44,983 nucleotides of DNA. Origin: Deltaproteobacteria bacterium. Lineage in GTDB: Bacteria > Desulfobacterota > Desulfomonilia > UBA1062. The number at the start of each line of letters is the position of its first letter. Within the stretch, counting starts at the first letter, position 1. The DNA is taken from positions 1-44,983 of the forward strand of contig JAGOOG010000017.1 of assembly GCA_017992605.1 (NCBI GenBank), in the 5' to 3' direction. The position numbers were made by a program, and so were the translations under genes. The notes below the pieces were generated by a model that saw nothing but the letters and a program-made list of their open reading frames with translations, was not told the DNA's origin and made no database searches. Below, piece by piece: positions 15,092 to 20,073 of this stretch.

Positions 15092-15292
15092 CTACAGCTT
15101 CATTACGTTCGATGCCTGCGGACCCTTGGGTCCGTTGGTCACCTCGAAGGTGACCTTCTCTCCCTCGGTAAGCGTCTTGAAACCGTCTCCTTTGATAGCA
15201 GAATAGTGAACGAACACATCGCTGCCGCCGTCCTGCGTGATGAATCCAAAACCCTTCTTTTCGTTGAACCACTTTACTGTTCCTGTAGCCAT
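15092..15292 (-). CDS. cspA: Cold-shock protein
   Basis: A 66-residue single cold-shock domain that binds single-stranded RNA and DNA and melts RNA structure. RNP1 is KGFGFI near residue 15 and RNP2 is VFVHYSAI near 27. Full family length. GGAGG lies seven bases before the ATG. The predicted message has a leader of about 150 bases, as in cold-regulated csp genes. The symbol names the family; the paralogue is not resolved. Confidence 0.95.
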
Positions 15293-17214: not shown

Positions 17215-18375
17215 ATGTACAAGATCGACCTACTGAACAACATCTCGGAAAAGGGCTTGCGTCTTTTCACGGACAGGTATGAGTACCGCACAGGCGTCTC
17301 AGAGCCCGACGGCATCCTGGTACGAAGCAAGGAGATGAAGGACATGACCCTGCCCTCGAGTCTGAAGGCCATCGCCCGCGCAGGCGCCGGGGTAAACAAC
17401 ATCCCCATCGACAAGTGCTCGGAGAAGGGCATTGTGGTGTTCAATACCCCGGGTGCGAACGCCAACGGCGTGAAGGAACTGGTCATTCTCGGCATGCTGC
17501 TGGCCAGCCGGAAGGTGACCGAAGGAATTGCCTGGGCCAAGGGCCTCGTCGGCGAAGGCGACAAGGTCCCCGATCTGATCGAGAAGGGAAAGTCCAAGTT
17601 CGGCGGCACCGAGATCCTCGGCAAGAAAGTGGGCGTGGTCGGCCTGGGTGCCATCGGCACCATGGTGGCCAATGCCGCCGAGGGCCTGGGCATGGAGGTC
17701 ATCGGGTACGATCCGTTCCTGTCCATCGAGGCGGCATGGATGCTGTCCCGCAACACCAAGCGGGCCTCGAGCCTGGAAAAGCTCCTTGCCGACTCCGACT
17801 TCGTCACCCTGCACGTGCCGTTGAACAAGGACACCCGTGGATCCATCGATGCGGATAAGTTCGCCATCATGAAGAAAGGTGCCGTGCTCCTGAACTTCGC
17901 CAGAAGGGAACTCGTGAATACCGCGGACCTCAAGAAGGCTCTCGCCGACGGGATCGTGAGCTGCTACGTGACGGACTTCCCCGACGAAGAGCTCATCAAG
18001 ATGGACAGGAGCATAGCCATCCCGCATCTGGGTGCCTCCACCGAGGAGTCCGAGGAGAACTGCGCGATCATGGCGGCCATGCAGCTCATGGAGTACCTGG
18101 AAAACGGCAACATCAAGAATTCGGTCAACTTCCCCGAGACCCACCTCGACAGGTCGCCCAGCAAGAGGCTGACCATCGCAAACCAGAACCTGCCGGGCAT
18201 GATCGAGAAGATCACGCACCTCCTGGCCGAGAACAAGATCAACATCGCGGACATGATCAACAAGAGCAAGGGCAGCATCGCCTACAACATCATCGATATC
18301 GACGGCGATGTGAATGAAGGCCTGATCGGGAAGATCGGGTCCCTTGAAGGCGTCCTGGCGATACGGGTACTGTAG
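17215..18375 (+). CDS. serA: D-3-phosphoglycerate dehydrogenase, short ACT type
   Basis: A 386-residue cytosolic NAD-dependent 2-hydroxyacid dehydrogenase for the first step of serine synthesis. It has ARAGAGVNNIPIDKC near residue 57, the NAD loop VGVVGLGAIGTMVANAAEGL, LLNFARRELVNTADL and the catalytic His in IAIPHLGASTEESEENCA. The last 75 residues form an ACT domain (NQNLPGMIEKITHLLAENKI). GGAGGA lies four bases before the ATG. It belongs to the short class without the intervening domain; the long class seems represented only by the remnant at 18552. Other 2-hydroxyacid substrates are possible but less likely. Confidence 0.88.
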   Translation: MYKIDLLNNISEKGLRLFTDRYEYRTGVSEPDGILVRSKEMKDMTLPSSLKAIARAGAGVNNIPIDKCSEKGIVVFNTPGANANGVKELVILGMLLASRKVTEGIAWAKGLVGEGDKVPDLIEKGKSKFGGTEILGKKVGVVGLGAIGTMVANAAEGLGMEVIGYDPFLSIEAAWMLSRNTKRASSLEKLLADSDFVTLHVPLNKDTRGSIDADKFAIMKKGAVLLNFARRELVNTADLKKALADGIVSCYVTDFPDEELIKMDRSIAIPHLGASTEESEENCAIMAAMQLMEYLENGNIKNSVNFPETHLDRSPSKRLTIANQNLPGMIEKITHLLAENKINIADMINKSKGSIAYNIIDIDGDVNEGLIGKIGSLEGVLAIRVL

Positions 18376-18397
18376 GGAACTCCCCGGCCATACCGCT

Positions 18398-18434
18398 CCC
18401 GGGCACGGTCACCCACACGAACACCGTGTCCGGG
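18398..18434 (+). terminator. Hairpin after serA
   Basis: CCCGGGCACGGT (18398-18409) pairs with ACCGTGTCCGGG (18423-18434), twelve pairs including one G-U, with a 13-base loop. No T-run follows. It probably marks the end of serA before the next promoter. Confidence 0.45.
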
Positions 18435-18487
18435 GGCAGGCACACCCCGAATCCGTTTACCGTCGACCATCCCCGTCTCTCTTGGTG

Positions 18488-18533
18488 TTGACACCTCGGG
18501 AGCCATTTGTTACAAGTGCTCCGAATCTATAAT
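18488..18533 (+). promoter_or_regulatory. Promoter region before the mini-ACT gene and purA
   Basis: A perfect -10, TATAAT, lies at 18528-18533 with TTTGTT (18506-18511) 16 bases upstream. A perfect -35, TTGACA, lies at 18488-18493 with TACAAG 17 bases behind it. Either pairing could serve; the first gives a start about ten bases before the TTG at 18552. Confidence 0.55.
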
Positions 18534-18551
18534 CCCGGCTCAGGGGGAAGA

Positions 18552-18758
18552 TTGAAGATATTCATCAGCGATAAGCTGTCCGATGCGGGTGTCGAGATCC
18601 TCGGCGAGGCCGGCATCACTATCGCAGGGCTCCTCCTCGGCCGCGGCCGCCTGGAAGACACGGCCATCATCGACGTGGATACCGAGGTCCCCAAGAAGGT
18701 TATGGACAAACTGAGGTGGGTCCCGAACGCCCTGTCTGTCCAGGAGGCATTCATCTAG
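18552..18758 (+). CDS. 68-residue ACT protein, apparently an internally deleted SerA
   Basis: Starts with TTG at 18552, four bases after AGGGGG. The first 21 residues (MKIFISDKLSDAGVEILGEA) read like the N-terminus of long phosphoglycerate dehydrogenases. The remainder, with ITIAGLLLGRGRLEDTAIID and PKKVMDKLRWVPNALSV, reads like the last half of their C-terminal ACT domain. Both source regions contain an ILGEAGI-like segment, so an in-frame deletion between similar sequences would explain the joint. The secondary structure still reads beta-alpha-beta-beta-alpha-beta, a complete ACT fold, so it may be a functional small regulator rather than debris. It lies 31 bases before purA. Confidence 0.7.
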   Translation: MKIFISDKLSDAGVEILGEAGITIAGLLLGRGRLEDTAIIDVDTEVPKKVMDKLRWVPNALSVQEAFI

Positions 18759-18789
18759 CACGCAAGAGGGCTTGAGGAGGATCTCGCAC

Positions 18790-20073
18790 ATGGCAAACAT
18801 CGTGGTGGTGGGCACCCAGTGGGGTGATGAGGGCAAGGGCAAGATCGTCGATCTGCTCACGGAACGGTCCGACCTGATCATCAGGTTCCAGGGCGGCAAC
18901 AACGCCGGCCATACCCTCGTGGTGGGGGACAGAAAGGTCGTGCTCCACCTCATCCCGTCAGGCATCCTCCATCCGGGCAAACTCTGCGTGATAGGCTCAG
19001 GGGTGGTGCTGGACCCCGAGATACTCCTGGAAGAGATCGATGCCCTCAAAGAAAAGGGGTACGACATCTCGCCGGAGTCCATCGCCATAAGCGACCGAAC
19101 CCACGTGATCATGCCCTACCACCGCATCATCGACACCGCCAGGGACTGCACCCAGGGTATCGGGACCACGGGCAGGGGAATAGGCCCTGCCTACGAGGAC
19201 AAGGCCCGGCGTCTGGGCATCAGGGTGGTCGACCTCGCCAACGAGACTTACCTGAAGAAGAAGCTCGATGCAGCCTTCGAGGAAAAGCAGGAATACATCA
19301 CCAGGATCCTCAAGCTCAAGCCCCTGGACAAGGACAGCATATTCAAGAAGCTCTCGGCCATGGGCGCACGCATCAGACCCTATGTACGAGACGTCCCGGT
19401 CCTCCTCGACGAGAACATGAAGCAGGGCAGGCACCTCCTCTTCGAAGGTGCCCAGGGTGCCAACCTGGATATGGACCACGGCACCTACCCGTACGTGACG
19501 TCATCCAACACCGTGGCCGGTCAGGCATGTGTAGGCTCCGGCATAGGTCCGACGGCCATTCACTCGGTCATCGGCATCTGCAAGGCGTACACCACCCGCG
19601 TGGGGGGTGGCCCCTTCCCGACCGAACTCAGCGACGAGACAGGCGAAAGGCTCCGTGCCTTCGGCGGCGAATACGGGGCCACCACCGGCAGACCCCGGCG
19701 CTGCGGCTGGCTGGACCTGGTGGCGCTGCGGCACTCCATACGCCTGAGCGGCATCTCATACCTCGCCATCACGAAACTCGACGTGCTCTCGGGGTTCGAG
19801 ACCATCAAGGTGGCGGTCGAATACCGGTCCGTCGGCTCGACCATCGAGAACATGCCCGCGAACCTCGAGATGTACACGGACCTTCAGCCCGTCTATGAGG
19901 AACTGCCGGGATGGGAGGAGCCACTGAGCGACGTCAGGTCCATCGATCACCTGCCGCGGAACTGCAGGGCATATCTCGACTACATCGAGGGCAAGCTCGG
20001 CGTGAAGACCGCCATTGTCTCGGTGGGACCAAAGCGCGAAGAAACCATCGTGCTGGAGGACCTGTTTCGCTAG
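18790..20073 (+). CDS. purA: Adenylosuccinate synthetase
   Basis: A 427-residue cytosolic enzyme joining IMP and aspartate with GTP, the first committed step to AMP. The signature GTQWGDEGKGKIVDLL opens the protein; GGNNAGHTLVV, GTTGRGIGPAYEDK and FEGAQGANLDMDHGTYPYVT follow. Length is normal. The start is fixed by GAGGAGGAT about nine bases upstream. It is probably co-transcribed with the mini-ACT gene. Confidence 0.98.
   Translation: MANIVVVGTQWGDEGKGKIVDLLTERSDLIIRFQGGNNAGHTLVVGDRKVVLHLIPSGILHPGKLCVIGSGVVLDPEILLEEIDALKEKGYDISPESIAISDRTHVIMPYHRIIDTARDCTQGIGTTGRGIGPAYEDKARRLGIRVVDLANETYLKKKLDAAFEEKQEYITRILKLKPLDKDSIFKKLSAMGARIRPYVRDVPVLLDENMKQGRHLLFEGAQGANLDMDHGTYPYVTSSNTVAGQACVGSGIGPTAIHSVIGICKAYTTRVGGGPFPTELSDETGERLRAFGGEYGATTGRPRRCGWLDLVALRHSIRLSGISYLAITKLDVLSGFETIKVAVEYRSVGSTIENMPANLEMYTDLQPVYEELPGWEEPLSDVRSIDHLPRNCRAYLDYIEGKLGVKTAIVSVGPKREETIVLEDLFR

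Follow-up and report, generated by a model that had tools for sequence, protein, structure and literature searches.

The question raised by this locus is whether a short open frame lying between two well-known genes is itself a gene or only what is left of one. In a 44,983-nucleotide stretch of DNA from a Deltaproteobacteria bacterium of the lineage UBA1062 (assembly GCA_017992605.1, contig JAGOOG010000017.1; the whole stretch is hereafter called the window), 68 codons and a TAG stop, beginning with TTG, are found at positions 18552-18758, with a serA gene for phosphoglycerate dehydrogenase (PGDH) upstream and purA downstream. An 83-aa call in the open reading frame list is the same frame, extended upstream to another TTG only. 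A first-pass annotation, made from the letters of the window, described the product as a stand-alone ACT protein that apparently arose when a long SerA lost its middle part, and suggested that it might be either a relic of gene replacement or a new serine sensor.

Xenologous displacement of genes in situ, within operons, is a described evolutionary process. The terms xenologous and in-situ gene displacement are used in PMC1274311 and PMC9425974. Type I PGDH, the enzyme to which the frame proved to be related, is composed of four domains, including an ASB and an ACT domain (PMC6300728). The evidence presented below indicates that the frame is very probably a pseudogene scar of a type I serA that was displaced in situ by a type II serA, and that it most likely persists for the sake of the putative purA promoter in its front end.

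Results

Homology of the 68-codon frame

Codons 1-17 of the frame correspond to the start of a type I PGDH of 528 aa, and the last 51-53 codons of the frame to its end (Table 1). Matches to type I SerA from the same genus reach 54-71% at the N-terminus of that protein (residues 1-24 of the frame) and 65-76% at its C-terminus (residues 16-68); both ends thus align on either side of the joint, as expected if the middle of a long SerA had been deleted. The best NCBIfam profile was that of type I PGDH (TIGR01327, positions 470-521, E 2.2e-5), while a generic ACT profile gave 0.016, so that the frame matches SerA better than other ACT proteins. The Pfam ACT model (PF01842) scored 15.4 bits, below its gathering cut-off of 27, and a sequence search of the PDB with the remnant as query returned a chance match only. 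In an alignment with a sister genome of the same genus (G003), the upstream leader, the start codon, the stop codon and the purA leader all align closely with the window, and homology is therefore not in doubt. The remnant shares with type I PGDH both of its ends, the site before purA, the promoter and the leader, but the substrate-binding, nucleotide-binding and ASB domains are deleted and the ACT residues have decayed.

Table 1. Features of the serA-purA region, in window coordinates
Feature	Position	Strand	Basis
Cold-shock protein gene, typical, ordinary	15092-15292	-	ORF list
Type II phosphoglycerate dehydrogenase, serA, 386 aa, C-terminal ACT	17215..18375	+	Pfam 2-Hacid_dh, 2-Hacid_dh_C; E. 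coli-type PGDH in PDB
Putative promoter, TTGACA (18488-18493), 17-bp spacer, TACAAG (18511-18516), upstream TG; ancestral serA-purA promoter	18488..18516	+	Sequence and conservation
Shine-Dalgarno of the lost serA, AGGAGG (G003) to AGGGGG	18542..18548	+	G003 alignment
Remnant 1, first 17 codons of type I serA, beginning with TTG	18552..18602	+	Alignment with relatives
Deletion junction GATCCTC, microhomology of up to 7 bp in relatives	18596..18602	+	Alignments
Remnant 2, final ~53 codons of type I serA with its stop, from the end of the ACT domain; shares the junction with remnant 1	18597..18758	+	Profile and alignments
Slippage site, Ile codons reduced to two from the four of intact genes	18666..18671	+	Alignments
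purA Shine-Dalgarno, GAGGAGGA	18774..18781	+	Sequence; conserved with G003
purA, adenylosuccinate synthase, lying downstream in the ancestral serA-purA unit	18790..20073	+	NF002223, 620.8 bits

The deletion junction

DNA alignment with the relatives shows that 458 of the 528 codons of the parent (1,374 bp) are missing, in frame. The DNA common to both sides of the joint in these relatives amounts to only 5-7 bp, at best GATCCTC (in G001), identical to the junction of the window, which makes this a microhomology junction. The earlier suggestion that both parental segments read like ILGEAGI was not borne out, since the N-terminal side in the genus reads IL(K/T)xGGF and only the C-terminal side reads (I/A)(I/L)GE(A/S)G(I/V). 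The remnant has also lost two of the four Ile codons of an ATC run in the third (core) strand, an in-frame loss of 6 nt that is evidently a slippage event. A literature search for a described internal-deletion pseudogene of serA gave nothing relevant.

The serA-purA site in relatives

Leaving aside the genome of the window (G000), 19 of the 24 family genomes match the C-terminal part of the remnant inside a frame of ~530-620 aa, and every one of the 13 same-family loci read out carries an intact type I serA (525-529 codons; 528 aa in the genus) that is immediately followed by purA. A full-length long serA, which the first-pass annotation had proposed to look for in relatives, thus stands at exactly this site. 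In four genomes of the same genus (G001, G002, G003 and G004), pepD lies upstream and purA downstream, as in the window, and the site, with these flanks shared by the remnant and the intact genes, is orthologous throughout G000-G004. No match to type I PGDH exceeded the cut-off in the window's genome, the sole strong match being the type II gene at 17215; serC is present, and so the serine pathway remains.

The arrangement in G003 deserves particular attention, because pepD, a type II serA, an intact type I serA and purA follow one another there on one contig. This is the missing intermediate, the arrangement to be expected immediately ahead of the deletion, and one in-frame loss of about 1,374 bp connects it to the state seen in the window. 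Among the 24 family genomes, 16 have type I only, 3 have both types, 5 have type II only and none lacks both. Loss of type I is therefore confined to genomes with type II (5/8 vs 0/16; Fisher p about 0.0013, hand-computed and with relatedness ignored). The loss in the window's genome is separate from that, in one event or several, in three genomes of a single genus (G019, G022 and G023).

The upstream type II serA

The short-type serA reported upstream of the frame is indeed a type II gene. It is 84% identical to the G003 copy at the same place, and its catalytic Arg and His align with those of E. coli SerA, as read from the alignment. Type II SerA of the family is about 75-82% identical to copies from Smithellaceae/Syntrophaceae, whereas for purA the figure is only about 52-58%, a contrast that suggests horizontal transfer; the gene probably spread in this way. 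In a tree of type II SerA the family members group with Smithellaceae/Syntrophaceae with no clean separation, and the tree favours neither direction.

Type II serA lies near purA both in this family and in Smithellaceae/Syntrophaceae (L041-L068), in differing orientations and positions, which would mean repeated arrival in the same purA neighbourhood. Some Smithellaceae (L054-L064) have the order type I serA, purA, type II serA, and others (L044, L045, L048, L049 and L052) have type II only, with type I absent, which suggests that the same displacement of type I serA happened there too.

The putative promoter block

The block of TTGACA, 17-bp spacer and TACAAG is found 64-71 bp before the intact serA in 13 of 13 relatives, although less exactly in three. 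Between G003 and the window it is nearly identical, while most of the other intergenic sequence is unalignable. The block has an upstream TG, and a wider motif, CCATTTGTTACAAGTGC, extends its -10 region (18488-18519). Most of 14 serA leaders and three scars have conserved this motif, which is longer than a promoter box requires and may include a regulator site.

In G019, G022 and G023, from which type I serA has been lost, the block is kept 155-239 bp before purA. A decayed serA start follows it in G019 (a colinear match of 35 bp with a score of 40, where shuffled sequences reached 25 at most), and there is no recognisable serA in the scars of G022 and G023, the best match in G022 being a weak, non-colinear 23 bp. 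The block is retained in all four scar loci, so that, on the sequences of these loci, promoter-sparing loss of type I serA has recurred; most simply, the block would be kept because it serves purA. We infer that it is a working purA promoter and that this role is the reason why the front end of the lost gene survived.

A scan for consensus promoters and terminators found nothing, since the -10 box TACAAG fails the rule of the scan, and no Rfam match to a leader RNA element occurs in 18376-18800. Of the ribosome-binding site and promoter claimed for the frame, the predicted promoter rests on conservation, and the Shine-Dalgarno sequence is there in weakened form.

Selection on the remnant

The 13 intact relatives share 21 invariant C-terminal columns, and the remnant has changed six of these (N>T, R>G, F>L, D>G, G>D and N>D), compared with 0-1 changes in each intact copy in a leave-one-out control. 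A codon model with free branch lengths, resting on 69 codons and one remnant genome, gave an omega of 1.2 for the remnant branch vs 0.02 for the background; equal omega was rejected (p 3e-5) and neutrality of the remnant branch was not. Under a clock, which is supported by the fact that G000 and G003 are equally distant from G002 in purA, omega_mini was 0.19, equal omega was again rejected (p 5e-5), and omega 1 was rejected for the branch as a whole. The remnant, with omega raised about ten-fold (p about 5e-5), is relaxed from constraint. Under the clock, uniform weak constraint (lnL -655.46) and initial constraint giving way to neutrality in the final ~17% of the branch (lnL -655.34) fit equally well.

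The inferred neutral age is about 0.07 substitutions/nt, at which a 68-codon frame has a probability of 0.75 of containing no stop, falling to 0.37 once a frameshift rate is assumed. An open frame is thus expected by chance and is not evidence for function; the frame is intact as annotated, but its intactness loses its meaning as a sign of use. Nor did the relatives supply a mini-gene under purifying selection, the short form occurring in one genome only among the 24 of the family, with relaxed constraint on its ACT residues.

Against a scar it can be held that the frame is open and the deletion in frame, as a functional peptide would need. The last 28 codons of the remnant differ from G003 by about one synonymous change, where purA would lead one to expect roughly nine; some constraint may act on this stretch, though the start of purA is similarly identical. 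Identity to G003 is about 93-95% across the final 84 nt of the remnant and the initial ~110 nt of purA (18675-18900), for which recombination or local constraint are possible causes.

That the short frame is still translated and useful, whether as a leader peptide tuning or protecting the expression of purA or as an ACT-like peptide, is improbable. The better form of this idea, itself distinctly unlikely, is that the frame was kept as a translated leader, in which the passage of ribosomes would prevent transcription polarity or couple translation to purA. The 6-nt loss, like the large deletion, preserved the frame; start, stop and purA leader are all kept, the purA ribosome-binding site begins 15 nt past the stop, and weak uniform constraint is compatible with the clock model. 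However, G019, G022 and G023, which have also lost type I serA, keep the promoter block only, with no matching open frame, the Shine-Dalgarno of the remnant has weakened, and chance suffices to keep the frame open.

The ACT fold and the serine site

Serine is contacted in PGDH by H344/N346/N364 (E. coli) or Y461/D463/N481 (M. tuberculosis), an Asn being common to both known sites (N364 and N481, respectively) (PMC6300728). In the alignment this Asn, which lies in the GINIA segment, is Thr in the remnant, and the PG turn (xPG loop) that precedes it has been replaced by the SerA N-terminus. The remnant thus lacks the PGDH contact residues of a serine-binding ACT domain. AlphaFold models of the 68-aa peptide reached a pLDDT of 57.5 from the single sequence and 51.4 with 14 sequences, which the shallow alignment may partly have lowered. 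Taken with the subthreshold Pfam score and two residues lost from the third strand, this low confidence, weak evidence by itself, gives no support to the claim that a full ACT fold is still spelled by the frame.

A new stand-alone, ACT-like serine sensor, built from the two SerA ends, with the N-terminal strand-helix replacing the lost one of the ACT domain, and acting perhaps on PurA or type II SerA, is accordingly very unlikely. It resembles stand-alone ACT-domain proteins (PF01842) in length and in the strand-helix-strand-strand-helix-strand order that can be read from its sequence, and its best profile match is to the ACT end of PGDH. It differs from them in its score below the Pfam cut-off, its missing serine site and an unconserved stand-alone form, and residues invariant in the ACT domain have changed; on these grounds, together with the low fold confidence and the single occurrence, the sensor was rejected, and the stand-alone protein of the first-pass annotation is not supported either. 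We infer that the 68-aa peptide has no function.

Least probable of all is an assembly artefact that dropped the middle of an intact serA from the contig, for although the genome is a draft of 63 contigs with a short repeat at the junction, 5-7 bp is too short to mislead assembly, no type I serA middle occurs elsewhere in the genome, and it was rejected on the private changes of the remnant, which at invariant sites and in the slippage deletion is unlike an intact gene.

Discussion

The relic after gene replacement is the proposal that has prevailed, with type I lost, type II adjoining, and both still held by G003. In an ancestor of the window's genome and G003, the type II serA would have taken up a place with pepD on one side and the native type I serA on the other. 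Serine synthesis would then have been covered by the type II enzyme, and the type I gene could lose its 1,374 bp through illegitimate recombination at the microhomology. The front end would have escaped deletion owing to the serA-purA promoter within it, the back end would join the purA leader, and the remnant would now be drifting near neutrality. The scar is real and roughly datable.

The locus agrees with displacement of a xenologous kind in situ in that a foreign type lies beside the native gene, the native gene is then lost, and the neighbourhood is conserved. Unlike the usual picture, both the intermediate state and a deletion scar with a retained promoter are visible, and, unlike displacement inside operons, the incoming gene lies just outside the native transcription unit. 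Displacement itself is a known process; the series of stages is unusually complete here.

A practical consequence is that annotators may mislabel such a scar as an 'ACT domain protein'. For the family, the loci form a before, during and after series of one enzyme gene replacing another of the same function, with both genes present, then a scar, and then older scars decayed almost to the promoter. Since all four scar loci spare the block before purA, they point to what selection appears to protect when an operon loses its first gene.
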